Of a stretch of 64,000 bases of DNA, positions 3,438 through 62,784 are shown piece after piece. The translations under genes and the position numbers were made by a program. The number at the start of each line of letters is the position of its first letter. The stretch's first letter is position 1. The notes under the pieces were generated by a model. That model searched no databases and had not been told where the DNA came from. It was given only the letters and a program-made list of their open reading frames with translations. The stretch is from the NCBI GenBank assembly GCA_004299555.1, contig SCQU01000025.1:1-64000 (forward strand). Direction: 5' to 3'. The stretch is from Rhodanobacteraceae bacterium. GTDB lineage: Bacteria > Pseudomonadota > Gammaproteobacteria > Xanthomonadales > Rhodanobacteraceae.

Positions 3438-4946
3438 ATGAACCACGACTTGTTGATGATTGTGGATACCGTGGCCGCCGAGAAGGCGGTGCCGCGCGAC
3501 GTGATTTTCGGCGCCCTGGAGGCGGCACTCGCGACCGCGGCCAAGAAACGCTATCCCGACGAAGAGCCCGAAATCCGCGTCGCCATCGACCAGGAAACGG
3601 GCGAGTATGAAACCTTCCGCCGCTGGCAGGTGATCGCCGACGATGGCGAGATGGAATCGCCCGACTGGCAGCTGCGCCTGATGGATGCGGTCGACGAGCG
3701 CGCCGATGCCGAGGTTGGCCAGTACATCGAGCAGCCAATCGAAAACCCCGAGTTCGGCCGCATTACCGCGCAGGCCGCCAAACAGGTCATCGTGCAGCGC
3801 ATCCGCGAAGCGGAACGTGCGCAGGTGGTCGAGGCATGGACCGAGCGCGTGGGCGAGCTGGTCAACGGTATCGCCAAGCGCGTCGAGCGCGGCAACATCT
3901 ACATCGACCTTGGCGGCAATGCCGAGGCGTTCATCCCGCGCGACAAGGCCATCCCGCGCGAAGCGGTGCGCGTCGGTGACCGCGTGCGCGGTTATCTGTA
4001 CGAAGTGCGTTCCGAGCCACGCGGCCCGCAGCTGTTCGTGTCGCGGACGGCGCCCGAGTTCATGATGGAACTGTTCAAGCTCGAAGTGCCGGAAGTGGGT
4101 CAGGGCATCGTCGAGATCCGCGCCTGTGCGCGCGATGCCGGCGATCGCGCCAAGATCGCGGTCGAGGCGCACGACAAGCGCACCGATCCGATCGGCGCCT
4201 GCATCGGCATGCGCGGTTCGCGGGTGCAGGCGGTCTCCAATGAGTTGAATGGCGAGCGCATCGACATCGTGCTGTGGAACGACGCGCCGGCGCAGTTCGT
4301 GATCAATGCGATGGCGCCCGCCGAGGTGCAGTCGATCATCGTCGATGAAGACAAGCACTCGATGGACATCGCGGTGGCCGAGGACAAGCTGTCGCAGGCG
4401 ATTGGCCGGGGCGGCCAGAACGTACGCCTGGCCAGCAAGCTGTCCGGCTGGGATTTGAAGGTGATGACCCAGGACCAGGTCGTCGCCAAGAGCGAAGCCG
4501 AACAGGAAACCGCGCGCAAGTTGTTCATGGACAAGCTCGAAGTCGACCAGGAAATCTCCAACATCCTGGTGCAGGAAGGCTTCTCGACCATCGAGGAAAT
4601 TGCCTATGTGCCGTCCGGCGAGCTGCTGGCGGTAGAGGGTTTTGACGAGGACATCGTCGAAGAGCTTCGCACCCGCGCCAAGGATGCGCTGCTGACCGAG
4701 GCGCTGGCGGTCGAGGAGGACCTCGACGAGCACGCGCCGTCCGCGGAACTGCTGGCGCTGGAAGGCATGGATGAGGAAACCGCATACGCATTGGCCGAGC
4801 GTGGCATCATTACGCCGGATGATTTGGCCGACCAGGCGGTGGATGACCTGATTGACATGGAAGGCATGGACGAGGAGCGCGCCGGTGCCCTGATCATGGC
4901 CGCGCGGGCGCCAATGTTGGCGCGGATGGAGCAGGCGGCGGAGTAA
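3438..4946 (+). CDS. nusA: Transcription termination/antitermination factor NusA
   Basis: A 502-residue RNA polymerase-binding elongation factor. The N-terminal polymerase-binding domain is at about 1-125. The S1 domain (about 130-200) includes RGNIYIDLGGNAEAF. Two KH domains (about 230-345) carry GACIGMRGSRVQ and the GRGGQNVRLAS loop. Two C-terminal acidic helix-hairpin-helix repeats (LLAVEGFDE and LLALEGMDE) complete the usual gammaproteobacterial architecture. The start ATG at 3438 has GGAG eight bases upstream; an in-frame ATG 33 bp earlier is unlikely. It acts with RimP and IF2 in one operon, the last gene 113 bp downstream. Confidence 0.97.
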   Translation: MNHDLLMIVDTVAAEKAVPRDVIFGALEAALATAAKKRYPDEEPEIRVAIDQETGEYETFRRWQVIADDGEMESPDWQLRLMDAVDERADAEVGQYIEQPIENPEFGRITAQAAKQVIVQRIREAERAQVVEAWTERVGELVNGIAKRVERGNIYIDLGGNAEAFIPRDKAIPREAVRVGDRVRGYLYEVRSEPRGPQLFVSRTAPEFMMELFKLEVPEVGQGIVEIRACARDAGDRAKIAVEAHDKRTDPIGACIGMRGSRVQAVSNELNGERIDIVLWNDAPAQFVINAMAPAEVQSIIVDEDKHSMDIAVAEDKLSQAIGRGGQNVRLASKLSGWDLKVMTQDQVVAKSEAEQETARKLFMDKLEVDQEISNILVQEGFSTIEEIAYVPSGELLAVEGFDEDIVEELRTRAKDALLTEALAVEEDLDEHAPSAELLALEGMDEETAYALAERGIITPDDLADQAVDDLIDMEGMDEERAGALIMAARAPMLARMEQAAE

Positions 4947-5058
4947 GAATCCCGGAGTGGTGGTTGTGGTTGTTCCGGTTTTTGAATGCCGCCGCAGCAG
5001 GCTTGGCACGCGCATCTGGATGCGCGGCAAGCGGTGAAGACACTAGAGGTTTGACACG

Positions 5059-7650
5059 ATGGCGGAAATCACGATCAAGCAATTGGCGGGCATGGTGGGG
5101 ACGCCCGAGGACAAGCTGCTGGCACAGCTTGCCGAGGCCGGCATGCGCTTCGAAGGGCCCAACCAGGTCATCAGCAAGAGCGAAAAGGCCAAGCTGCTTG
5201 ATTTTCTTCGCCGCAACCATGGCAAGCAGGAGGGCGGGGTCGCCGCCGCGCCGAAGCAAATTACCCTCAAGCGGCGCAAGGTCAGCGAGATCACCGTTGC
5301 CGGCGGCCGCGGATCCAGCGCCAAGACCGTGAACGTCGAGGTGCGCGCGCACCGCACCTACGTCAAGCGCGCCGTGATCGCGACACCCGGCACGGGTGAC
5401 AGCGAGCGTGAAGAAGCGTTGCGCAAGCTGAAGGAATCGCAGGAACAGCAGGAACGCGAGCTGGCCGCACTGGCCGAGCAGGACCGCAAGCGCAAGGAAG
5501 AACAGCAGCGCCTGGAGGTCGCCGAGGCGGAACGCAAGCGCGCCGAAGAGGCGCGCGTCAAGGCCGAGGCCGACGCGGCAGCGGCGGCACGAGCCGCCGA
5601 AAAGACCGTCGGCGCGAAGGGTGACACCGGGCCCGCGGCGCCGCACCGGCACGAAGCGCCGAAACCCGCCCATGGCAAGGACGCTGCCAGCCACGGCAAG
5701 CCAAAGCGTGCGCGCGGTTCGCACCGCATGCACGACGACGATGTCGGCGGACGTTTCCCCGGCGGTGGCGAACTGCACCTGACCGACGCCGAGCGCGCAC
5801 GGCGCACCACACGCCGCCGCAGCAAGTCCAGGGTTGACCTGTCCGACATCACGGGCCAGCACGGTTTTTCCCGCCCGGTTGCACCGATGATGCGCGAAAT
5901 CCCGATTGGTGAAACCGTGGTGGTTTCCGATCTGGCGCAGAAGATGGCGGTCAATGGATCGGAAGTGGTCAAGGCGCTGTTCAAGATGGGCACCATGGTG
6001 ACCATCAACCAGACAATTGACCACGACACCGCTGCACTGGTGGTGGAAGAATTGGGCCACAAGCCGGTGGATGCCGCGGAAAAGACCGCTGAAACCGTAC
6101 TTGCCGCGCACGTCGGCATCGACGTTGCCGAAGGCGAGAAGGTTTCGCGGCCGCCGGTCGTGACCATCATGGGCCACGTCGATCACGGCAAGACGTCACT
6201 GCTCGATTACATCCGGCGTACCAAGGTCGCTTCGGGCGAAGCCGGCGGCATTACCCAGCACATCGGTGCCTACCATGTAAAAACCGCCAAGGGCGTCATC
6301 ACGTTCCTGGACACCCCCGGCCATGCGGCGTTCACCGCGATGCGTGCGCGGGGCGCGCAGGCGACCGACATCGTGGTGCTGGTGGTCGCGGCTGACGACG
6401 GCGTGATGCCGCAGACCGTTGAGGCCATCGAGCACGCGCGGGCGGCCAAGGTGCCGCTCATCGTCGCGGTCAACAAGATGGACAAGCCCGGCGCCAACCC
6501 GGACAACGTGCGCCAGGGCCTGGCCAAGCACGAGGTGATTCCGGAAGACTGGGGCGGTGATACGCAGTTTGTCCAGGTGTCGGCCAAGACGGGCATGGGC
6601 GTTGACAACCTGTTGGACGCCATCAACCTGCAGGCCGAGGTGATGGAACTGAAGGCCGTGCCGGATGGCCGCGCCCTGGGCGTGGTCATCGAGTCCAGCC
6701 TTGACAAGGGCCGCGGCCCGGTGGCAACGGTGCTGGTGCAGCAAGGCCTGCTCAAGCGCGGTGACTACGTCGTATGCGGCGTCGAGTATGGCCGCGTGCG
6801 GGCCTTGTTTGACGCGACCGGCAAGCAGGTGGAAAACGCCGGCCCGTCGATCCCGGTGCAGATGCTGGGCCTGTCCGGCGTGCCGGATGCGGGCGACGAG
6901 TTCGTGGTCGCGGCCGATGAAAAGCTCGCGCGCAACGTGGTGTCCGAGCGCGAGGACCTGCGGCGTGAAAAGCGCATGGTCACGCCGAGCAACCGGCTTG
7001 AAGACATCATGGCACAGATGGGCAAGAGCGACGCCCAGCAGACCCTGAACATCCTGATCAAGGCCGACGTCCAGGGCTCGGCCGAGGCGCTGCGCGACTC
7101 GCTGTCGGCGATCAGCAATGACCTCGTCAAGGTCAATGTGATCGCGTCGGGCGTGGGCGGCATCACCGAGTCCGATGCCACCTTTGCCTCGGCGTCCAAG
7201 GCGCTGTTGATCGGTTTCAACGTGCGCGCGGACGCGTCGGCGCGCAAGGTGGTCGAACGCGATGGCGTGGATATGCGGTACTTCTCGATCATCTATGACG
7301 TGATCGACCAGGTGAAACAGGCCGCGTCGGGCCTGCTCGGCGTGGAAGTCCGCGAGGAAATCATTGGCGTGGCCGAAGTGCGCGAAGTGTTCCGCTCGTC
7401 GAAGTTCGGCGCGGTCGCCGGCTGCATGGTCATTGAAGGGAGCGTGCAGCGGCACAAGCCGATCCGCGTATTGCGCGATGACGTGGTGGTCTTCGAAGGC
7501 GAGCTCGAATCGTTGCGCCACTTCAAGGAAAATGTGGACGAAGCCAAGAACGGCACCGAGTGCGGCATTGGCGTCAAGCAGTACAACGACGTGAAGCCCG
7601 GCGACCGTATCGAGTGCTTTGAACGCATCGAAGTCGCGCGGACGCTGTAG
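5059..7650 (+). CDS. infB: Translation initiation factor IF-2
   Basis: An 863-residue GTPase that places fMet-tRNA in the 30S P site. The IF2_N domain is at 1-50, a charged Ala/Glu/Lys/Arg-rich helical linker at about 110-180, and a second IF2_N-type segment before the G domain. G motifs: GHVDHGKT (372-379), DTPGH (418-422) and NKMD (472-475). Domains II to IV follow, with the C-terminal fMet-tRNA-binding barrel. The length is normal for gammaproteobacteria. The ATG has no perfect Shine-Dalgarno sequence, only AGAGGT at some distance. The gene product partners the initiator tRNA encoded at the head of the same operon. Confidence 0.98.
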
Positions 7651-7690
7651 TATTCGGGGCGCGCCATACCACCGGACGATCCACGTCATT

Positions 7691-7828
7691 GTCATTCCGG
7701 ACGGCACGCGGCGGCGATCCGGAATCGGTGTTCATCGATCGAGGTGCCCGACTCGAACCGTCCACGTGCCACATGGCGTGTACCGATTCCGGGTTCCACC
7801 GCGCTAGAGCCGGTGGCCCTGTAATGAC
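7691..7828. repeat. Small interspersed element with GTCATT inverted ends
   Basis: The infB-rbfA gap (216 bp) is filled by a 138-bp segment that begins GTCATTCC and ends AATGAC. Inside its left end is the inverted pair ATTCCGGA (7694-7701) and TCCGGAAT (7718-7725). It looks like a REP- or MITE-type intergenic element and shares its end type with the element at 11384-11534. No coding capacity is seen. Confidence 0.5.
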
Positions 7829-7866
7829 GAAGCAACAATTCCCTTCCTGCCGCCGGTTTCCCGTTC

Positions 7867-8232
7867 ATGTCCACGCGCGCCTTCCATCGCACCGATCGCC
7901 TCAACGCGGAACTTCGCCGTGAGGTGGGGTTGCTGGTACACGCGGCGGTGCGCGACCACGCACTGCCGCAGGCCAGCGTGGTCGACGTCGATGCCAGTCG
8001 TGAACTCGATGTGGCGACGGTATGGGTGACGGTACTGCAGCCCGAACGTGCCGTCGAAGCCGTCAAGGCACTGAAAGCGCTCGCCAGGGAATTTCGCCAC
8101 CAGCTGGCCCAAACCCTGCGCCTGCGCCGGGTTCCCGAGTTGCGTTTCAAGTACGACGATTCGATCGACAGGGGCGAGCGGATCGATCAGCTGCTGCGCG
8201 ACGAGGCAGGGTCGGATCACCCAGGTGCCTGA
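7867..8232 (+). CDS. rbfA: 30S ribosome-binding factor RbfA
   Basis: A 121-residue KH-fold protein that binds the 16S rRNA 5' region during late 30S assembly and cold adaptation. The order is family-typical: an N-terminal HRTDRLNAELRREV helix, a central strand pair with VWVTVL, and a C-terminal RRVPELRFKYDDSIDRGERI block. The start is the only sensible ATG; its ribosome site is weak. The stop overlaps a possible GTG of truB at 8225. Confidence 0.95.
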   Translation: MSTRAFHRTDRLNAELRREVGLLVHAAVRDHALPQASVVDVDASRELDVATVWVTVLQPERAVEAVKALKALAREFRHQLAQTLRLRRVPELRFKYDDSIDRGERIDQLLRDEAGSDHPGA

Positions 8233-8287
8233 ATACCCGCTTCCAACGGAAGGGGGCCGCGCGGAGGATGGCCGGCACCGCCGGGAG

Positions 8288-9220
8288 ATGGCCATTTCCC
8301 GCGGGCGTGTCGCTTCCGGGCGAACGCAGGCAAAAGCCGTCACCGGCATTTTGTTGCTCGACAAACCATCGGGGATGTCATCCAACCGTGCGCTGCAGCA
8401 GGCCAAGTGCCTGTTCAACGCGGCCAAGGCGGGGCACACTGGTAGCTTGGATCCGCTGGCGACCGGACTGCTGCCCGTCTGCTTTGGTGAAGCCACCAAG
8501 ATTGCCGGTTACCTGCTGGGCGCGCGCAAGGCGTATGCGGCGGAGTGCCGCCTCGGGCTGACGACCGATACGCTGGATGCGGACGGCACGGTACTGCAAA
8601 CGCGCCCGGTGCCGGCGCTCGATGCGGCGTTGATCGGCGCGGCGCTCGCACGCCTGACCGGCCACATCGTGCAGGTACCACCGGTGTATTCGGCGCTGAA
8701 ACAGGGCGGCGTGCCGCTGTACAAGCGGGCGCGACGGGGTGAAGAGGTCACCGTACCGCCGCGGGAAGTCGATGTGTATCGTCTTGACCTCGTCGGCCGC
8801 GCTGACACCGCATTGAAGCTGCATGTGGAGTGCGGCTCGGGCACTTATGTGCGTAGTCTCGTGCGCGACCTCGGCGAGCTGCTTGGTTGCGGCGCGCACC
8901 TGACCGCCTTGCGGCGCCTGTGGGTGGACCCGTTTCGTGCGCCGTGCATGTTCACGCTCGATGGATTGGGTGACTTGTCCGCGCGCAAAGGCGCAGCGGC
9001 GCTGGCTGCCTGCCTGTTGCCCATCGAGGCCGGTCTTGCCGGCTGGCCCGCACTGGCGCTGGACGCGGAAGGTACGGACGCGGTGGCGCACGGGCGGGCG
9101 TTGCCGGTTGGAAGCGCGCCGGGCCGGTACCTGGCGCGGGCGCCTTCCGGCCGCCTGCTCGCGATCGGCGAAGTCGATTCGTTTGGTGTGTTCAAGGTGC
9201 TGCGCGGGTTTGCGGGCTGA
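8288..9220 (+). CDS. truB: tRNA pseudouridine-55 synthase TruB
   Basis: A 310-residue enzyme converting U55 of the tRNA T-loop to pseudouridine. The catalytic Asp lies in GHTGSLDPLATG, after LLDKPSGMSSN. Later blocks (VPPVYSALKQGG, CGSGTYVRSLVRDLG) are conserved, and a C-terminal PUA-type region follows. The start is uncertain: ATG 8288 gives the usual N-terminus, while the in-frame GTG at 8225 overlaps the rbfA stop and would add 21 residues with translational coupling. Confidence 0.95.
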   Translation: MAISRGRVASGRTQAKAVTGILLLDKPSGMSSNRALQQAKCLFNAAKAGHTGSLDPLATGLLPVCFGEATKIAGYLLGARKAYAAECRLGLTTDTLDADGTVLQTRPVPALDAALIGAALARLTGHIVQVPPVYSALKQGGVPLYKRARRGEEVTVPPREVDVYRLDLVGRADTALKLHVECGSGTYVRSLVRDLGELLGCGAHLTALRRLWVDPFRAPCMFTLDGLGDLSARKGAAALAACLLPIEAGLAGWPALALDAEGTDAVAHGRALPVGSAPGRYLARAPSGRLLAIGEVDSFGVFKVLRGFAG

Positions 9221-9349
9221 GTCCTGCGGCATCCGCGGCGCGCCGGCAACGCTCGCTTTTTCTCGCCGATCCCCATACAATTGCCGGTTTCCACGCCCCG
9301 GGGCTGCCTGTGACCGGCCCGTGGCCGTTCCAATCGGAGTCAATTGATC

Positions 9350-9613
9350 ATGGTAAGGATTCGTCTTTCGCGCGCCGGCGCCCGTGGCAGGCCGTTTTAC
9401 CACGTGGTGGTGACCGACCAGCGCAACGCCCGCGATGGCCGCGGCATTGAACGCCTGGGCTACTTCAATCCGGGTGCGGCGGGTGAGCACGACCAGCGCC
9501 TGGTGCTCGACGTCGAAAAGCTGAACGCCTGGGTCGCCAAGGGTGCGCAGTGCTCGGCCAAGGTTGCCATGCTGGCGAAAGAAGCCGCCAAGCAGGCAGT
9601 TGCCGCTGGGTGA
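9350..9613 (+). CDS. rpsP: 30S ribosomal protein bS16
   Basis: An 87-residue ribosomal protein starting [20 protein letters not shown], the standard bS16 N-terminus, with [12 protein letters not shown] next. GGAG lies ten bases before the ATG. It is the first gene of the rpsP-rimM-trmD-rplS operon and is spaced 4 bp from rimM. Confidence 0.97.
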
Positions 9614-47209: not shown

Positions 47210-47285
<76 letters not shown>

Positions 47286-47398
47286 GATCTGCGTGACCCC
47301 GGTACGCCGGGGTCTGTTGTACCGGAGCCGCGCAAGACGGTTTCGCGTCAGGTGTCGCGGTGGCGCCCAACGGCGCGGCCGCGAGGTTTCCAGTCACC

Positions 47399-47472
47399 GG
47401 CCAGGTGGCAGAGTGGTCATGTAGCGGACTGCAAATCCGCGTACGCCGGTTCGATTCCGACCCTGGCCTCCA
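47399..47472 (+). tRNA. tRNA-Cys (GCA)
   Basis: A 74-base cloverleaf with encoded CCA. Acceptor GGCCAGG pairs with CCTGGCC; the discriminator is T, as in all tRNA-Cys; anticodon GCA at 47431-47433. The integrase gene begins 181 bp downstream, so the 3' end of this tRNA is the probable attachment site. Confidence 0.96.
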
Positions 47473-47571
47473 TATCAGGTACTGTCAAATCCTGCAGATT
47501 CCTCTGAAGCCGCATAGCAGGGCGGTTCCACAAGGGATTGTTCCTCTAGATTTCTTCCGGATACCCTAGGC

Positions 47572-47634
47572 TACCCCCAATTCTGGGGGTATGCTTGGGG
47601 GTATCCGAGGGCGCATAAGGTCGCGTACCCCCAA
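47572..47634. promoter_or_regulatory. Cluster of TACCCCCA motifs before the integrase gene
   Basis: Four copies of TACCCCCA or its complement lie within 63 bp: 47572-47579 (+), 47584-47591 (-), 47596-47603 (-) and 47626-47633 (+). The first two form a perfect inverted repeat with a four-base spacer. Such clusters upstream of P4-type integrase genes are plausible arm-type binding or autoregulation sites for integrase or an excisionase; the role is inferred. Confidence 0.55.
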
Positions 47635-47653
47635 GTCGGATGAGGTGCACCGT

Positions 47654-48847
47654 ATGCTGACCGTCTCGAGTGTCAAAAACGCGAAGCCCAAAGCGAAGGC
47701 CTATAAGCTGGCCGACGAACGTGCGATGTATCTGCTGGTAACTCCAGCCGGTGGCAAGTTATGGCGATTCAAGTATCGCCGACCGGCCGGCCGCAGGGAG
47801 AACGTTCTGGCGCTCGGCGCATTCCCCGATGTGAGCCTTGCCCAAGCTCGCGAGCGTCGCGAAGAGGCGCGCAAGGCACTAGCGGCTGGCATTGATCCCG
47901 CGGAGCAGCGCAGGGCCGCTGCGGCCGCGGGCGTTGCGACATTCGAAGCCGTGGCGCGTGAGTACATCGCGAAAAGCGCGACCCGGTGGAGCGCCTCGAA
48001 TGCTGCCCAGGTCACGGCCCGATTGGAGCACAACGTGTTTCCGTGGATGGGCAGAAAACCTGTTGCCGATGTAACTGCGGCCGACGTACTGGCGGTTGTC
48101 CAGCGCATCGCGGGCCGAGGGGCGGTTGAAGTGGCACACCGGGTACAGGGTAGCATCGGGCAGGTACTGCGGTTTGCCATGGCGACGCAACGGGCCAGTA
48201 TGGACGTCACCGCTGCCTTGCGGGGCGCATTGCCATCAAGCACTGGCCGGCACTTCGGCACCATCACGGAGCCCGCCAAAGTGGGCGAGTTGCTGCGGGC
48301 GATCGACGGCTACAGCGGGAGCTTTGTTACCCGCGCGGCGTTGGAGCTCGCACCATTGGTGTTCGTGCGGCCGGGCGAACTGCGTGCGATGGAGTGGGCG
48401 GAGCTGGATTGGGCGGCGACCGAGTGGCGCATACCTGCCGAGCGCATGAAGATGGGTGAAGCCCATGTCGTGCCACTGGCATCGCAGGCCGTGTCGATTC
48501 TGCAGGACTTGCGGCCGCTGACGGCGGCGACACGCTATGTATTCCCCAGTGTGCGCAGCGCGCGCCGCCCTATGAGCGAGAACACCATCACGGCCGCGCT
48601 ACGACGGCTCGGCTATCCGGCCGGCAGTATGACTGGCCACGGGTTTCGCGCGATGGCGTCAACGTTACTCAACGAGCGAGGTTGGGCACCCGATGTCATT
48701 GAACGCCAATTGGCGCACAAGGAGCGCAACCTCGTACGCGCCGCGTACAACCATGCCGAGTACATGGCTGAGCGCCGCAAAATGATGCAGGCGTGGGCCG
48801 ATTATCTCGACGAGCTTCGGACGCGCAAGAGTTCCACGATCGCGTGA
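47654..48847 (+). CDS. P4-type tyrosine recombinase (integrase)
   Basis: A 397-residue site-specific recombinase. The N-terminal DUF4102-type arm-binding domain (about 1-85) has LADERAMYLLVTPAGGKLW and LGAFPDVSLAQAR. A core-binding SAM-like domain (about 100-185) follows. The catalytic domain has the Arg in RPGELRAMEW, HGFR, an H in LAHKERN and the Tyr in RAAYNHAEY. The ATG at 47654 has GAGGTG six bases upstream. Adjacent to tRNA-Cys, it should integrate an island at the tRNA 3' end. The gene is intact. Confidence 0.94.
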   Translation: MLTVSSVKNAKPKAKAYKLADERAMYLLVTPAGGKLWRFKYRRPAGRRENVLALGAFPDVSLAQARERREEARKALAAGIDPAEQRRAAAAAGVATFEAVAREYIAKSATRWSASNAAQVTARLEHNVFPWMGRKPVADVTAADVLAVVQRIAGRGAVEVAHRVQGSIGQVLRFAMATQRASMDVTAALRGALPSSTGRHFGTITEPAKVGELLRAIDGYSGSFVTRAALELAPLVFVRPGELRAMEWAELDWAATEWRIPAERMKMGEAHVVPLASQAVSILQDLRPLTAATRYVFPSVRSARRPMSENTITAALRRLGYPAGSMTGHGFRAMASTLLNERGWAPDVIERQLAHKERNLVRAAYNHAEYMAERRKMMQAWADYLDELRTRKSSTIA

Positions 48848-49206
48848 CGGTCGGGACCCTCGAAGACCGAAGGTCGTTCGCGCGCATTCCGATGGGAACG
48901 TCGGCCGGCTCGGAGAGCGAGCAGGGTGGATGGTATCCACGGGTTGATGGAATAGACCTCTGGATATCTTCAAGGCCACCAACGCCCGTGCGTTACGGTA
49001 TATGTGGCTCACAGATATCTCGAATGACGATTCCGCTACGAACGACCACCGGCGCCGTCATGCACAGTTTCTTCTATCCGGTTTAACCGCTTCCAGGCAT
49101 ATGGGGGGCTGGAAGCCCTGACTGTTTGCCCGCGTACGCGATCGTCGCGTACGCTACGCTGCCAGTGAACTTTGTCTGGCGGCTGCATCGGCGACGGAGG
49201 GATGGC
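48848..49206. other. Intergenic stretch after the integrase
   Basis: About 360 bp without a supported gene. GGAGGG at 49195-49200 is the ribosome site of the next gene. No second copy of the tRNA-Cys 3' end is visible. Confidence 0.5.
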
Positions 49207-49803
49207 ATGGACACAAGCTACGGTCGGGGAACAGCGTTGGAACGCGATGAGCGGTCGCCGACTACGGTTGCGAAGGAAGCGTTGTACACGATGGCCGACG
49301 TCTGGGGGGTTGGATTGCGTAGGCCAGGGGAAGATTTTCTACGGGTCATATTCGGCGCGTTCATGGGCAATGATGAATTGGCGCACTACGATTGCGACGA
49401 GTTTTGTAATGAGGCACGCACCGTTGCAGCCACCGATGGGCCGCAGGTTCTCGTCATCGCCTCGTTTGCGATTGGCGCGGCCTACTCGGCCTCGGCCATG
49501 AAGTCCGATAGCGCAGGGCGCCTGCACCGTGCTTGGACGTATGCGACTGACGCCGTTTGGGAGGCAGCAGGCCTAAGCGCGCGCTTGGGCGCTCAGGTCG
49601 AGCAGCGGTCGGCGCTTGGGCGCATGGGCGCGGCGGCCAGGCATGAAGAAGATCGAGCACTGAAACGCGACGCGATAGAAGCCTACTTGAATGGCTCCTA
49701 TACGTCGAAAGACGCAGCAGCGGAGGCGATAGCGGGGAAGGTAGTTCCCGCGAAGTTTCGTACGGTGCGTGCTTGGCTAGTCGGTTTGTCAACGGGCAAG
49801 TAG
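49207..49803 (+). CDS. Hypothetical island protein
   Basis: A 198-residue protein of no recognised family. The ATG at 49207 has GGAGGG six bases upstream. The middle (DGPQVLVIASFAIGAAYSASA, about 80-100) is mildly hydrophobic. The last third (ALKRDAIEAYLNGSYTSKDA and on) looks like a small helical DNA-binding region: a stretch of this kind, with AAAEAIAGKV and FRTVRAWLVG, recurs in phage and island proteins that recognise DNA. It is cargo next to the integrase; a palindrome directly after the stop may end its transcript. Function unknown. Confidence 0.6.
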   Translation: MDTSYGRGTALERDERSPTTVAKEALYTMADVWGVGLRRPGEDFLRVIFGAFMGNDELAHYDCDEFCNEARTVAATDGPQVLVIASFAIGAAYSASAMKSDSAGRLHRAWTYATDAVWEAAGLSARLGAQVEQRSALGRMGAAARHEEDRALKRDAIEAYLNGSYTSKDAAAEAIAGKVVPAKFRTVRAWLVGLSTGK

Positions 49804-49805
49804 CT

Positions 49806-49827
49806 TACGGTCTGCCGGCAGGCCGTA
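49806..49827. terminator. 22-bp palindrome after the island gene
   Basis: TACGGTCTGCC (49806-49816) and GGCAGGCCGTA (49817-49827) are inverted with one T-G wobble and no spacer. No clear T run follows (CGTTGTTG). It could be a weak terminator or a protein-binding palindrome. Confidence 0.4.
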
Positions 49828-50089
49828 CGTTGTTGCTGTAGGGCGCCTTCTCGATCAGCATGGCTTCACCGATGCTACTCACAACTCCGGCGCTGCGGCG
49901 CGGATGTTGCTGAGGCGCATATATGGGCTCTGTTAGCTTTGATCGTTATGAACCACGGCGCGTGCTTACCGAGTCAGAACTCGCCCGGCGTTGGCAGGTT
50001 TCGAAGAAGACGCTGCAGGGTTTGACCTGCTCCCCTAATGCCGTACCAGTTGTTAGTAGGTACAGTCCGCTCACCGAGAGAGGACGGAC

Positions 50090-50356
50090 ATGCGCAAGAG
50101 CAGATTCACGACCGAGCAGATCATCGGGTTCATCAAGCAAGCGGATGCCGGTCTTGCGGTCACCGAGCTGTGCCGCCAGAACGGTTTCAGCGATGCGACC
50201 TTCTACAAGTGGCGGGCGAAGTACGGCGGCATGGATGTGCCGGATGCCCGTCGCCTGAAGGCGCTGGAGTTGGAGAACGGCCGGCTCAAGAAGCTGCTGG
50301 CCGAGGCGCACCTGGACATCGAGGCGCTGAAGATCGGGTTCGGGGTAAAAAGCTAG
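50090..50356 (+). CDS. IS3-family transposase OrfA
   Basis: An 88-residue helix-turn-helix protein ([20 protein letters not shown] start; [20 protein letters not shown] recognition region), then a leucine-zipper-like tail ([18 protein letters not shown]). It binds the terminal repeats and is fused to OrfB by -1 frameshifting at the A run 50347-50351, just before its TAG at 50354. Confidence 0.93.
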
Positions 50357-51222
50357 CCCCGCTGGTGAAGCGCGCGGCGGTCGGGCGCATGCTGGAAGTG
50401 ATCAGCGAGCGCCGGGCCTGCCGGCTGGCGGGGCTCTCACGCGATGCGTTCCGGTGTCCGCCGGTGGCATCGGCGGACACGGTCGCGTTGTCGGCCAAGC
50501 TGATTGAACTGGCGCAGGCGCGGCGGCGCTTTGGCTATCGCCGCTTGCACGACCTGCTCCGGCCGGCGTTCCCCAACGTGAATCACAAACGCGTCTATCG
50601 ACTGTACCGCGAGGCCGACCTTGCCGTGCGCCGGCGCAAGAAGGCCAAGTTCCCGGCGTCACTGCGCCAGCCGCTGCAGCCAGCGCTGGCGCCGAACGAG
50701 GTGTGGAGCATGGACTTCGTATCCGATGCGCTGGCCAACGGCCGCAAGCTGCGCTGCTTGACGATCGCCGATGACTTCACCCACGAGACCGTCGACATCG
50801 TCGTCGATCACGGCATCAGCGGCGCCTACGTTGCGCGTGTACTCGACCAGGCGGCGTGCTTCCGCGGCTACCCGCAATCGATTCGTACCGACAATGGCCC
50901 CGAGTTCACATCCAAGGCGTTGTTCGCTTGGGCCGAACGGCACCACGTCCGGCACTTGCTGATCCAGCCCGGCAAACCGACCCAGAACGGCTACATCGAA
51001 AGCTTCAACGGCAAGTTCCGCGACGAGTGCTTGAACGATCACTGGTTCACGACGCTGCCGCAAGCCCGTGAGGTCATTGCCGACTGGCGGCGTGACTACA
51101 ACGAAGTGCGACCGCACAGCAGTTGCGGCCGGATCCCGCCTGCGCAGTTTGCAGCCAACTACCGACACCAACAGGAGGTCAAAGCCAAAACCCAGAGCAA
51201 CAACGAAGCACCCCTGCAGTAA
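50347..51222 (+). CDS. IS3-family transposase OrfB (catalytic part of OrfAB)
   Basis: About 291 codons in the -1 frame relative to OrfA, entered at the AAAAAG run (50347-50352) and read [11 protein letters not shown]. An HTH_21 region ([10 protein letters not shown]) precedes the rve integrase core. The DDE triad is visible: Asp in [10 protein letters not shown], Asp in [10 protein letters not shown], Glu in [13 protein letters not shown]. It is intact to the TAA at 51220. The start given is the shift point, not an initiation codon; the internal ATG of MLEVISERR is another possible start. Confidence 0.9.
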
Positions 51223-58813: not shown

Positions 58814-59224
58814 CTAATTGTTCTTGATCGTCGGATCGCCGGGGTCACTACCGGCAGATGGTGGATTCGTTTCGCAAGGGGTGTCGTTAACAGTGGCGCA
58901 TAACTTATAGCTCCAGTCTCCCGTGGTACTGGCGCTGGTGTTCCAATCGGAGATCTGGATTTGGGTGCTGGAAGGTTCGGTCAAATCCTTGAAAATGTCC
59001 GTGTTCGACGGGCCATCGATCCAGGAAAAACCAGAACTCGCCGGCGAGTCGAAGGATCCTGTATCTCCACCGGTAAGTTGCAAGTCCCACAGGATAGTCT
59101 GCGGCAACGCGTTTTGAGGTACGGAGGTCTGATGGTCCAGTCGCTTGCCGTCCACCTTGAGCGACCATGGTGAGGTACTTTTGTCCACGGTGACATGTAC
59201 GGTGATGGGGTTGGGATCGGTCAT
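58814..59224 (-). CDS. Small DP-EP-like protein, partner of the TIR-TPR gene
   Basis: A 136-residue soluble protein without signal peptide. It reads as an all-beta, Asp/Ser/Thr-rich fold (MTDPNPITVHVTVDKSTSPW; ILWDLQLTGGDTGSF; FSWIDGPSNTDIF) and ends GDPTIKNN. It resembles short proteins annotated as DP-EP family in Xanthomonadales; that match is from memory. AGGAG lies before the ATG. The stop of the TIR gene is 32 bp upstream, so the two form an operon. Two Cys near residue 109-116 could pair. Function unknown. Confidence 0.65.
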   Translation of the reverse strand: MTDPNPITVHVTVDKSTSPWSLKVDGKRLDHQTSVPQNALPQTILWDLQLTGGDTGSFDSPASSGFSWIDGPSNTDIFKDLTEPSSTQIQISDWNTSASTTGDWSYKLCATVNDTPCETNPPSAGSDPGDPTIKNN

Positions 59225-59256
59225 GATGATCTCCTGTAGTTGGGGTGGGTTTATTA

Positions 59257-61500
59257 CTAATGCACTTTGACGCCCGCCTGCGACGCGGCTTCGCTGTTAT
59301 CTGCATTCGCCGCCGCAAGTAGTCTTACGTGAAAAGCTGTGTTCACCGGATACGCGATATGCTCGTGCTGCAACAACGCAACGAATTCAGGATCGCGATA
59401 ACCTTCGTTCCAAAGTTGTTTGATCAAGGGTTGCGCTTTGGCCGCGCGACCCAACGCGAGGAGTGCTTCGATCCGTAACGCGAGCAGACGCGGATCGCCG
59501 TCATCTATTTTCACGCGTTGCATGGCTTGCAACACCTCTTCGCGCTGATTCCGCGCGGCGACTGGATCATCAATCACTGCGGCAAGCAGCAACTTGGCTG
59601 TCATGGTGTCGAGCATGGTGCCGCGTTCGTCTGGCTGCTTGGCAAGGATGGGCTCAAGGATGTCAAGCGCATTTCGTGCTGACGATCGCGCTGCGTCGGC
59701 GTTACCGACGTGGTGTTGTTCAGCTGCCTGTTCGATCAGCGCCTCTGCGTATTCGCTTTGCCAGATCCGGTTGCCCGGTGTCTTTTTGATCAGTGCAACC
59801 ATAATCGCAATGGCTCTCGAGTTCGACGCAACTGCCGTCCGCATGTCGCCGTCCAACCGCTGCAATCGCGCCAATTGCGACGAGTACAATGCGAGATGAT
59901 TCTGAAAATCGGTTTCGTTCGGCTCGAATCGTGTCAACTGCGTGGCGATGTCAACCGAACGTTGCAAATCATGCTTGCCCGCCGTGGTCTCGCCAGCCAG
60001 CGACAGAGCGCGTCCCAGAATCGCATGCACCCTCAGCATGCCTTCGCGCTGATTGTTGTTGCGCGGATCACGTGCCGACAAGTTGGTCTCGATGGCATCG
60101 CTGTAGCGATATTCGAGAATCGCCGTTGCAAGATCGCCTCGTTCCAGTGCGAGCTTGCCCAAGTTGTTGCGCGCATCGCCAAGTTCCGACAGGTAGTGAG
60201 CGTCGTCCGGCTTTGCCGCTACCGCTTCTTGTATTTCGTCAAGCGTATGTTGGTAAGCGAGTTCCGCAGCTGCGAATTGCCCACGTGCTTCCAACACGTG
60301 ACCAATGTTGTTGTCAGTAGAGGACAATTGAACAAGTAGTGACGGGTCCTTCGGAGCATGCGAGAGTGAAGTTTGCAGGGTCTGATGGGCCGATTCGAAA
60401 GCGCGCTGTGCATCGTCCAGCTTGCCTTGGTTCCAATGGGTAAATCCGATGAAGGTAAGTGTGCGCGAGTAGGCGATTTGGCGCGCCACATCTCTGGGTG
60501 ACGTGGCAGCCAACTTGGAAGAAACCGCCGTGGAGCTGCGAAAAGCATCCAACGCGCCGGTAAAATTCCCCAGTTCCAAACGCACTGATCCGATTTTCTC
60601 CAACGCCTTGGCGCGTTGGGCCAGTGCCGTATCGTTGACATCGTTATTTGGCAGTGACTTGAAATATGCCAGCGCCTTGCCATCCACGGCCTGCATGATG
60701 TCAAGACGATTCACCTGCAATAGTTTGTCATTGAGATCGCCAAGCATGAAGCCGACCAGACCCTCAGCTTGTTTCTGACGGCGCTGCGCGGCTTGTTGCG
60801 CGACTACGGCTTCGTGGCGCGAGATCAGGGCGTATACGGCCAGCACGCTGGTGATGGCCATCACTCCCAGCGCCAGCGCGGCGATCGCGGTCATGCGGCG
60901 GGTGCGGCGCTGCAGCTCGCGCTGCTTCAGCGCATCGAACCCGACGCCGAGCATGCCCGCGATCAGTTTCAGCTTGGCGTTGGCCTTGCCGTCCTTGCCT
61001 TCGCGCGCGTCGGCGGCGATCGGCTCGGTGCGTTCGTTCGTGGGCCGTCCGTCCACGTCGGTGGCAAACCGCAACGCTGGACAAAAACATTCCTCGGCTG
61101 CGCGGCCGGGCAGGTCGGTGGCGTTGGGTTCACCGGCGACGATCAGGCAGAAGATGCGACCACTGCGGCCCATGCGCTTGTACGCCAGCACTTCCTCGTT
61201 GACCCAGCGCGAGGCGGCCGAGGCGGGCGAGCAGAGCACGATGAGGTTTTCGGACTTCGCCAGCGCTTCGTTGATCTTGCTGCCGAGCTCGGGCGAACTC
61301 GACAGTTCCTCGCGGTCGCGGAACACCGGGTTCAGACGGCGTGGGATGACCCCAGCGTCAGTCGGTTTCCCAACCAGCCGCGAGGGCACCCGATACGTTT
61401 CCAGCGCCTTGTGCAGCCAATCGGCCCACGCCTTGTCGCCGTGGCTGTAGCTGATGAAGGCGCGATACGTGAAGCTGGAACCGGACGACGACTCGGGCAT
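59257..61500 (-). CDS. TIR domain - transmembrane - TPR protein
   Basis: A 747-residue protein. The TIR domain (about 11-150) opens YRAFISYSHGDKAWADWLH and has SRWVNEEV (98-104), where Glu102 or Glu103 corresponds to the NADase Glu in enzymatic TIR domains. A linker with RELQRRTRR leads to one membrane helix (203-226). After it come a conserved AEGLVGFMLGDLNDKL block and TPR-like repeats (about 280-700; ALAQRAKALEKIGSVRLELG; LGDARNNLGKLALERGDLA). GGAGGT lies eight bases before the ATG at 61500. The TIR end is cytoplasmic if the helix follows the positive-inside rule. Defence or stress signalling is inferred from TIR biology; it is not shown. Confidence 0.85.
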   Translation of the reverse strand: MPESSSGSSFTYRAFISYSHGDKAWADWLHKALETYRVPSRLVGKPTDAGVIPRRLNPVFRDREELSSSPELGSKINEALAKSENLIVLCSPASAASRWVNEEVLAYKRMGRSGRIFCLIVAGEPNATDLPGRAAEECFCPALRFATDVDGRPTNERTEPIAADAREGKDGKANAKLKLIAGMLGVGFDALKQRELQRRTRRMTAIAALALGVMAITSVLAVYALISRHEAVVAQQAAQRRQKQAEGLVGFMLGDLNDKLLQVNRLDIMQAVDGKALAYFKSLPNNDVNDTALAQRAKALEKIGSVRLELGNFTGALDAFRSSTAVSSKLAATSPRDVARQIAYSRTLTFIGFTHWNQGKLDDAQRAFESAHQTLQTSLSHAPKDPSLLVQLSSTDNNIGHVLEARGQFAAAELAYQHTLDEIQEAVAAKPDDAHYLSELGDARNNLGKLALERGDLATAILEYRYSDAIETNLSARDPRNNNQREGMLRVHAILGRALSLAGETTAGKHDLQRSVDIATQLTRFEPNETDFQNHLALYSSQLARLQRLDGDMRTAVASNSRAIAIMVALIKKTPGNRIWQSEYAEALIEQAAEQHHVGNADAARSSARNALDILEPILAKQPDERGTMLDTMTAKLLLAAVIDDPVAARNQREEVLQAMQRVKIDDGDPRLLALRIEALLALGRAAKAQPLIKQLWNEGYRDPEFVALLQHEHIAYPVNTAFHVRLLAAANADNSEAASQAGVKVH

Positions 61501-62118
61501 GACCGTCACCTCCGATCGACGTTGCTGCATGCCATCCTTGGCGGGGCACGATCGTCGGGTGCGCAAGGCACCGGCGGGTCGCCCCGTTCCGGCGGCGCCA
61601 GAACGGGAAGGCAACTCTACCAAAATGTGAGCCACATCTCACATGGGTCCGCATCCGTCCGAGCGTAAGCAGACCTGCGCCAGTGATGCAGCAACGTCAA
61701 CTTTTGTCCGGTTGGCGCCTACCAGTCGGCCTGCTGCGGCGATATGGCTGGGCCGCCCCCCCCCTGATGCCGGCGGGTCATGCCTGCGGCGCCCACCGCT
61801 GCCGGCAGCGGGGAACGGCCGGTTTCGCCAGCAGCGGACGCCCGACAACACCAAGCGAACGGCTGGTGTGGGCCGGTCGCGGACGCCGGTCCCCGTCACC
61901 CCGACAGAAGCCTGCGTCGTCCGCCGCGTGCCAACCGGCTAGATGACCCACATTGATTGCGCGGTGCTCGCAGTAAGCTGGGGTTGCGTGAACGGCATCG
62001 TTGTGCCGATGGCCCCAATGCATGGCCAAGGCATGGGCACGTGGTGACGGGCGTGCGCACGGCTGTGCAACTCGAGTGAGAGTGGAGATCAAACACACCG
62101 AACCGTTGAGGCACCGCG
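61501..62118. other. Divergent intergenic region
   Basis: 618 bp between the TIR gene and the YedK-type gene, GC-rich, with no supported gene. It must hold both promoters; no clear LexA box was found. Confidence 0.4.
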
Positions 62119-62784
62119 ATGTGTGGCAGGTTTACGGGTGACAAGTCGCCGCGGCAGTGGGCAAGGTTGCTACATGCGGCGGTCGATGCGGGGACCGCCG
62201 ACCGTTTGAACGGCCTGCCCGCGGGTCCTCGCTACAACATTCCGCCGGGCACCCGCGCATGGATCGCCATGCTGGACGATGACGGCCACATCACCTTCGA
62301 TGAGTGGCTGTGGGCCTTTCCGACTTCGCGCGGAAACCGGATCAACGTTCGTAGCGAGAGCGCACATCGGGTGCCGGAGTACCGGGAACACTTCGACCAT
62401 CATCGCTGCGTCGTGCTGGCGTCCGGCTTTTATGAACCGCGTGGTGCAAAGTCGCTCAAGCACCGACCGTGGTTCTATTTCGTGCTGCGCGACGGCGCTC
62501 CGTTGTTCCTGGGCGGCATCATCAAACAGGAAGGGTTCTCGATTCTGACACGCCAACCCGTGGAGCCGGTCGCGTCCGTCCACGATCGCTCGCCCGTGAT
62601 GGTGCCTGCAGAGAACGTTGTGCCTTGGCTCGATCCGGATATCAAAGGCACCGATGCCTTGTCGCAGTTTGCGCCCGCGGCGTATGGCCGGCGCTTGGCG
62701 GGCTGGCAGGTGGGGGACGGTGCCAAGCAGGTGACCCGTGACGACGCGACGTTGATTGAACCTGTGGCAGCTGCGGGCGGTTGA
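62119..62784 (+). CDS. SOS response-associated peptidase family protein (YedK/HMCES)
   Basis: A 221-residue protein of the SRAP fold that crosslinks to abasic sites in single-stranded DNA through Cys2 (MCGRF start). The other active-site blocks are changed from the usual forms: NVRSESA (NARxE), GFYEP (GFYEW) and HDRSPVMV (HxRMP), but the Asn, Glu and His are kept. Length is normal. It acts on stalled-replication damage. GAGG precedes the ATG. It is divergent from the TIR gene. Confidence 0.92.
   Translation: MCGRFTGDKSPRQWARLLHAAVDAGTADRLNGLPAGPRYNIPPGTRAWIAMLDDDGHITFDEWLWAFPTSRGNRINVRSESAHRVPEYREHFDHHRCVVLASGFYEPRGAKSLKHRPWFYFVLRDGAPLFLGGIIKQEGFSILTRQPVEPVASVHDRSPVMVPAENVVPWLDPDIKGTDALSQFAPAAYGRRLAGWQVGDGAKQVTRDDATLIEPVAAAGG

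Follow-up and report, generated by a model that had tools for sequence, protein, structure and literature searches.

In a 64,000-nucleotide stretch of a Rhodanobacteraceae bacterium genome (assembly GCA_004299555.1, contig SCQU01000025.1, positions 1 to 64,000; hereafter the window), a gene for a membrane-anchored TIR protein with a large TPR half is followed after 32 nt, on the same strand, by a gene for a small beta-rich protein. We propose that this pair is probably one copy of a modular signalling system at the membrane, in which a transmembrane (TM)-TPR half and a partner with a DP-EP-like fold form an input cassette that is joined to an exchangeable output. The composition of the system, the conservation of the pairing and the exchange of the cassette are well supported by the comparisons described below. 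The features of the locus are as follows.

61500..59257, reverse strand: TIR-TM-TPR gene, 747 aa; open reading frame (ORF) with a ribosome-binding site and an ATG start at 61500; Pfam matches to TIR_2 and TPR
61505..61513, reverse strand: ribosome-binding site of the TIR gene, GGAGGTGAC, read from the sequence
61135..61458, reverse strand: TIR domain, about residues 15-122, with a W-x-x-x-E motif (Pfam TIR_2, E 1.6e-14)
60817..60897, reverse strand: single predicted TM segment, about residues 202-228 (19-residue Kyte-Doolittle means >1.6)
59341..60783, reverse strand: TPR superhelix, about residues 240-720
60076..60195, reverse strand: TPR hairpin spanning residues 436-475, the segment that diverges most closely in step with the partner tail
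59224..58814, reverse strand: small partner gene, 136 aa, DP-EP-like beta sandwich, with AGGAG upstream
58817..58837, reverse strand: C-terminal tail of the partner, DPTIKNN, residues 130-136
60601..61700, reverse strand: block of upstream region, TIR and TM segment near-identical to the paralogue on contig C9, ending about at the start of the TPR proper

Both genes have the character that an initial annotation, made from the sequence alone, had given them: a TIR protein with one hydrophobic segment and a TPR half, and a small beta-rich protein whose AlphaFold2 (AF2) model has a mean predicted local confidence (pLDDT) of 83.5. In Pfam searches the TIR_2 match of the larger protein is over the cut-off, several TPR models match, and ThsB_TIR is also found (E 2.1e-8, 34.9 bits vs a cut-off of 21.2); the PADLOC model of ThsB matches weakly (E 0.0038), and no ThsA was found among the window's flanking proteins that were scanned, a subset of its ORFs. 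All 109 TIR proteins compared (98 via a pattern, 11 by eye) have the Glu at W+4, which we take to be the equivalent of the catalytic Glu of SARM1 and of plant TIRs, and the TIR domain here probably cleaves NAD+. Plant TIRs align only weakly with these TIRs (best E 0.17).

The pairing recurs well beyond this locus. The same genome has three further TIR-TPR genes, two on contig C27 and one on C9, each with a small ORF with an xPx[IV]xN-like end downstream: the C9 partner has 115 aa and ends in ...PPCIKNQ, and the C27 partners end in ...NPTVINK (113 aa, or 131 aa from a longer start) and ...NPSIKNR (146 aa). Counting this genome, TIR-TPR genes at E <=1e-60 are present in 94 of 233 Rhodanobacteraceae genomes, and such genes occur in only 4 of 369 genomes drawn from the class; the contigs with relatives belong to Rhodanobacter, Dyella and other Rhodanobacteraceae/Lysobacteraceae, or to broader records of metagenome-assembled genomes. 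The fetched loci, with duplicate contigs removed, gave 117 distinct TIR ORFs, of which we excluded 8 (open at a contig end, or with downstream room of <700 nt) and kept 109. By a strict test, in which a small ORF has to end in Px[IV]xN with up to 8 residues after it and have its stop within 750 nt, a tailed partner is found downstream of 88 of the 109 TIR-TPR genes, as compared to 11 of 590 control ORFs (other ORFs of >=200 aa, >3 kb from any TIR). The pairing, whose adjacency in homologues the initial annotation had proposed to check, is conserved well above what chance would give. A post hoc reading by eye of the remaining 21 found 13 more with variant tails. In 11 of these, a short ORF (8 more acidic than basic, 3 lysine-rich) ends in PRIKPS, PGIKPS, SGIKPS, GAIKPS, PRIKST, TGVKNN or similar, and in the other 2, DP[VQ]I[RK]NGG stands ahead of a C-terminal hydrophobic stretch. 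The 8 TIR genes without a tail are the first gene of L052, where the next TIR of the same operon has a tailed partner, L068, which is broken or truncated at 280 aa, and those of L085, L087, L101, L192, L195 and L199. Two other causes of the pairing were considered: chance, ruled out by the comparison with the controls, and a single syntenic locus, ruled out by the copies on contigs C9, C21 and C27 of this genome.

Within this conserved pairing, the partner follows the TPR half rather than the TIR. Between the window and the C9 locus, identity per 100 nt is 77-97% between about 61700 and 60600 and drops beyond that to 47-66%, about the level that global alignment gives for unlike sequence; the two proteins are 91% identical over TIR residues and 39% over TPR residues, and their partners are of different types, A in the window and B at C9. 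This pattern extends to the relatives. For example, when the nearest neighbour is chosen by TPR distance, its partner is of the same type in 90 of 101 operons, vs 63 of 101 by TIR distance (including 13 operons with hand-read variant tails, with very close pairs barred as neighbours and 'acidic or none' treated as one lumped class). Similarly, the partner type is shared by 18 of 121 pairs alike in TIR and unlike in TPR, and by 222 of 370 pairs alike in TPR and less alike in TIR; the TPR half is therefore the better, if imperfect, predictor of partner type. These sequence comparisons give good support to an assignment of the partner to the TPR half, with the TIR half exchangeable, and they also favour the TPR part as the sensor, the role for it that the initial annotation had suggested. 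Compared with L020, the window block at 61700-60600 shows near-identical upstream, TIR and TM sequence in two paralogues of one genome whose TPR halves diverge, a pattern suggestive of gene conversion or of a domain swap.

A homologous TM-TPR chassis is found with another N-terminal part in place of the TIR. PF08985, the Pfam model of the DP-EP family, is over its cut-off in 6 of 398 genomes of the phylum; to these we added two weaker matches, G025 (same family) and G078 (same order), picked from 7 weak ones, four of which were looked at; the other two of these four, G008 and G060, adjoin TIR-TPR genes. At all 8 loci the DP-EP gene sits -15 to +33 nt from a gene for a protein of 1,066-1,150 aa, with Pfam matches to Trans_reg_C and nSTAND1 in 8 of 8 and to TPR (at E 0.01) in 7 of 8; we refer to these as winged helix-turn-helix (wHTH)-nSTAND1 proteins. 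Their second half matches the window TIR-TPR protein in every case (phmmer 6e-33 to 7e-16), mainly over window residues ~192-709, with the juxtamembrane and TPR part behind the TM segment in common, and none of the 8 matches its TIR part. SLOG-SLATT genes, described below, were not found at these 8 loci (7-9.5 kb each). A search of 360 class genomes with the TPR half gave matches in 5, this genome included; one of the matches, in G373, is partial, with no [DN]PxIxN ORF in its 3.7 kb. At several of these DP-EP loci (L219-L226) the gene that comes next, on one strand or the other, is PAS/GGDEF-like by eye. L220 has tandem DP-EP genes (4812-5255 and 5227-5733), both over the Pfam cut-off and both ending near a DPEVxN motif, the second with a signal-peptide-like start.

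The initial annotation had called the small protein DP-EP-like, and this label stands for the fold and not for a Pfam match. The AF2 model of the window partner resembles SO1698 of Shewanella, the founding DP-EP protein, including the sandwich and its C-terminal D-P strand, and by end positions the tail aligns with D116-P117 of SO1698. No Pfam model, PF08985 included, matches the window partner at E up to 1, and PF08985 was over its cut-off in 0 of 61 genomes scanned. A profile of C/D-type partners and two DP-EP proteins from wHTH-nSTAND1 loci (A7) matches SO1698 at E 8.3e-7, through the SO1698 tail DPQIIN; in a control profile without the two DP-EP rows (A9), SO1698 falls to E 4.2e-4 and ranks after a phage Hoc-like protein (6e-5). 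Searches of the PDB with single partner sequences, and with a partner profile (A1), found nothing relevant, and a pattern scan of this genome's contigs for the small protein found no relatives. The column of SO1698 Lys98 holds Ser in the window partner and Lys in 5 of 13 A7 rows, 0 of 14 A1 rows and 0 of 11 rows of a further partner alignment (A2), with the alignment uncertain there; many relatives have N-P in place of D-P. Several SO1698 structure entries stop at residue 116 and some mutants extend further; self-cleavage of SO1698 at D-P has reportedly been described (J Biol Chem 287:19452). At L194, L197 and L192 a DPxI[RK]N-like motif, in L192 only as the variant GGSIRN, lies just ahead of a membrane-anchor-like C-terminal hydrophobic segment.

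The C-terminal tail is portable, and its divergence tracks that of the TIR-TPR protein. All 14 rows of A1 have P131, I133, K134 and N135; only the invariance of K134 is independent, because most A1 rows were found via the P-x-I/V-x-N motif, and this way of choosing rows also accounts in part for the unchanging P, I/V and N of A1, A2, A7 and A9. Short proteins that are otherwise dissimilar end in the tail within these operons: among 32 short tail ORFs (<=75 aa, on the strand of the TIR or SLOG gene), which are too short for the DP-EP fold, a crude rule sorts 23 as acidic, 3 as PA-repeat, 3 as signal-peptide-like and 3 as other. Tail variants agree among the tail ORFs of one operon, both at the residue after Pro (x1; 0.58 vs 0.21 expected, p 5e-5) and at the residue before Asn (0.63 vs 0.38, p 0.001), in 19 operons with two or more tail ORFs, one per 85% cluster, of which at least one (L055) has homologous partners in tandem and inflates the agreement a little. 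Distances between tails and between TIR-TPR proteins are correlated (rho 0.48), and the correlation peaks at TPR residues 436-475, with a partial rank value of 0.34 vs a maximum of 0.22 in 300 random 40-column TPR sets. In the 82 operons with a SLOG-SLATT gene the tail tracks TIR-TPR given SLOG (partial 0.40), not SLOG given TIR-TPR (-0.05). An association of Glu/Lys at residue 471 with tail Lys/Arg (Fisher p 1e-6) ignores descent and was set aside as proof. The TPR superhelix model is like peptide-binding superhelices, including LGN and KLC1 with C-terminal peptides, Rap and NprR.

In the relatives there is a third component, a SLOG-like protein with two SLATT domains. Its gene is present in 90 of the 109 fetched TIR-TPR stretches, and in 70 of the 109 it follows the TIR-TPR gene within 1.5 kb on the same strand; it occurs in 5 of 369 class genomes, this one counted. 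The genome has one such gene, on C27 between two TIR paralogues, and the fetched stretches of the window and C9 copies hold none. Across the 109, 74 genes have a strict tail and SLOG-SLATT, 14 a strict tail without it, 13 a variant tail with it, 3 no tail with it and 5 neither. The protein, 554-638 aa where complete, has an N-terminal VIGVTSHR...LSALAEGGDQLVAEEAL region followed by two SLATT-like regions. It matches NCBIfam SLATT_1 (2.7e-7) and SLATT_3 (1.5e-5), both under the model cut-offs; DUF4231 is found in 33 of 34 third-gene proteins (Pfam, E up to 1) and is over the cut-off in that of this genome (2.8e-7, 31.4 bits). According to PMC7159879 and PMC9503650, SLATT domains are predicted pore formers that respond to nucleotide signals, SLOG is predicted to read ADP-ribose (ADPR) derivatives, and TIR and SLATT genes are neighbours in phages. 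The initial annotation described an effector with a small partner as a two-gene layout; the effector-type TIR with its dedicated partner holds, and a two-gene system as a whole is ruled out by the third gene in relatives. That annotation had overlooked the SLOG-SLATT component, the shared tail, the link between partner and TPR, and the three TIR paralogues and SLOG-SLATT gene elsewhere in the genome. At L098 (~5459-9116, oriented) and L100 (~5983-9505, oriented) a SLOG-SLATT gene lies behind another TPR-like gene, without a TIR-TPR gene of the window type; traces of a TIR-like region are seen by eye upstream, no tail ORFs were seen, the TPR-like gene of L098 carries a FSDGITEDIITDLG motif, and the L098 genome has a TIR-TPR gene on another contig.

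Taken together, these data suggest the following scheme. The TM-TPR receptor half and the DP-EP-fold partner would constitute the input cassette, with the partner probably contacting the TPR superhelix, in part via its C-terminal [D/N]PxIxN tail, and the N-terminal domain would be an exchangeable output, here the TIR. Once released or clustered, the TIR would probably cleave NAD+ and yield a nucleotide signal, to be received by the SLOG-like protein with two SLATT domains, which would then permeabilise the membrane. The window copy would be a satellite TIR/partner pair feeding the shared SLOG-SLATT protein on C27 in trans. Protection against phage or another invader is a likely role and the least certain part of the scheme.

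Several observations weigh against this scheme. The single TM segment suggests that the TPR half is periplasmic, and partners lacking a signal peptide, as most do by eye, would in that case not reach it. The SLOG assignment is weak (YAcAr in 2 of 34 proteins at 0.0047, DprA in 2 of 34 at 0.013, ShosA at 0.037), a PDB profile search with the third gene gave no matches, and 19 of the 109 TIR-TPR genes, the window's among them, have no SLOG-SLATT gene in the fetched stretch. A test along tree branches (97 rows) gave co-change of 0.20 between tail residue x2 and the 40 columns of hairpin 436-475 vs 0.19 for 417 columns, with 0.23 vs 0.18 for x2 and N/P and 0.17 vs 0.09 for x1; as this test lacks clear enrichment, the localisation to the hairpin rests on deep clades. 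Modelling of the complex, which the initial annotation had proposed, did not show docking: in a fused-chain AF2 model (L073) the tail has pLDDT 24-26, a result that decides nothing, since the pairing covered just two rows and the small domain itself stayed unfolded. Finally, AF2 places the tail of the free partner as a strand of its own sandwich, and its role is possibly structural only.

The last observation leads to a reading in which the tail is just the final DP-EP strand, kept for folding and with no role in TPR binding, as its equivalent place in SO1698 would also allow. We regard this as improbable, given that short ORFs at these loci, with no room for the fold, finish with the tail as well, and that tail variants match within operons. 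Alternatively, the small partner might act as an antitoxin-like inhibitor that holds TIR-TPR off via the tail until its loss or cleavage frees TIR activity. The tight downstream coupling, in which a TIR gene usually has one partner or more, is what one might expect of such an inhibitor; in some operons the only partner seen is a chain of 41-54 aa, mostly acidic and probably disordered, plus the tail, which is clamp-like rather than sensor-like, and the SO1698 entries that end at 116 while some mutants run on are consistent with self-cleavage. Tandem tail ORFs and signal-peptide-like ones would be unusual among antitoxins, and overall an inhibitor seems to us somewhat unlikely.

For the output, the TIR might merely deplete NAD+ on activation with SLOG-SLATT as an independent neighbour, a reading to which the 19 TIR-TPR genes without SLOG-SLATT, the window's included, lend some weight. 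The close linkage in most stretches speaks against it, as do L098 and L100, where SLOG-SLATT stands behind a different TPR-like gene with possible TIR traces, and we give it little credence. A developmental or envelope-stress pathway, widespread, chromosomal and often present once per genome, is a further alternative to defence, and one that we consider rather unlikely. It would fit the carriage of the system by 94 of 233 family genomes, the probably transcriptional wHTH-nSTAND1 output on a homologous chassis, and the position of several TIR loci near one conserved gene. Opposed to it are the TIR, SLATT and nSTAND domains, which are typical of conflict systems (established; see also PMC7159879 and PMC9503650), and the high divergence and shuffling of partner families and TPR halves, as an arms race predicts. 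The modular signalling system remains our preferred reading. A bolder version of it, tentative and in our estimation unlikely, would make DP-EP proteins ligands of the TM-TPR receptor class: self-cleavage or exposure at D/N-P would present the PxIxN tail, or separate short or secreted proteins would supply tails, and a tail in the TPR groove would switch the attached output, a TIR with its NAD-derived signal to SLOG-SLATT in one lineage and wHTH-nSTAND1 in others. If true, this would amount to a plug-and-play immune receptor system for peptide tails in Gram-negative bacteria, in which the tail codes of a single genome would be orthogonal.

The neighbourhood of the pair contains the integrase, insertion sequence and YedK-type gene that the initial annotation had listed in support of an accessory locus.

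47210-47472: tRNA genes (tRNA-Gly, tRNA-Cys)
47591-48847: integrase, PRK09692-like, below the cut-off of that model
50038-51222: IS3 transposase
62119-62784: SRAP/YedK-type gene

The region at 47210-51222, with the tRNA genes, integrase and transposase, is a possible start of an island about 10 kb from the pair. 'Accessory' may be right for this locus and 'rare' would be wrong, since the system is common in the family. In ten fetched contigs (L019, L059, L061, L072, L074, L076, L078, L081, L083 and L086) a conserved gene ending in SPVPGVSNIWR lies near the TIR loci, which suggests a common chromosomal site.

As far as we have searched, a DP-EP plus TM-TPR input cassette on TIR/SLOG-SLATT signalling is unreported. 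The statement of the initial annotation that the pairing is not a named system held in PADLOC, NCBIfam and the literature searched, where the full combination of TIR-TPR, DP-EP partner and SLOG-SLATT has no name either; an earlier mention is possible in Burroughs 2015, reportedly the founding paper of this network. We know of no role for SO1698 in the literature searched, despite its reported self-cleavage, and the DP-EP family, for whose founding member a structure exists, now gains a conserved partner and a genomic context, with a tie to TPR receptors. Output domains, TIR or wHTH-nSTAND1, are exchanged on one input cassette, and a candidate pathway from TIR to SLOG-SLATT emerges whose TIR-TPR part is found in 94 of 233 genomes of one family. 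The pairing of tail with TPR yields a concrete and falsifiable prediction of specificity.

Among known systems, Thoeris (ThsB TIR and ThsA SLOG-Sir2) is similar in that a TIR gene lies beside a SLOG-bearing receiver and an ADPR derivative made by the TIR is read by the SLOG, according to PMC9503650. In contrast, the TIR described here is fused to TM-TPR and comes with a tailed partner of its own; in its relatives the receiver has two SLATT domains instead of Sir2, with a weak SLOG assignment. The TIR-SLATT pairs of Firmicutes phages and the SLOG/SMODS-SLATT systems predicted by Burroughs and Aravind share the logic of TIR plus SLATT with a predicted pore effector; the passages compared (PMC9503650 and PMC7159879) mention no TPR receptor half, DP-EP partner or tail in those systems. 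With the DP-EP family (PF08985, DUF1888; SO1698) the model of the window partner shares the beta sandwich and an equivalently placed D-P close to the C-terminus, whereas the protein falls under Pfam detection and has Ser where SO1698 has Lys98, and many relatives have N-P. The modelled TPR superhelix has the general shape of peptide-binding TPR proteins such as the RRNPP receptors Rap and NprR, and its partner has a conserved C-terminal tail; here, however, the receptor is a membrane protein with a TIR output, and the partner that would bind it is mostly folded and lacks a signal peptide. Also close are the wHTH-nSTAND1-TM-TPR proteins, CadC/ToxR-like in layout, which share a homologous TM-TPR half and a DP-EP neighbour, and which carry a DNA-binding/STAND output instead of the TIR, at loci where SLOG-SLATT was not found.

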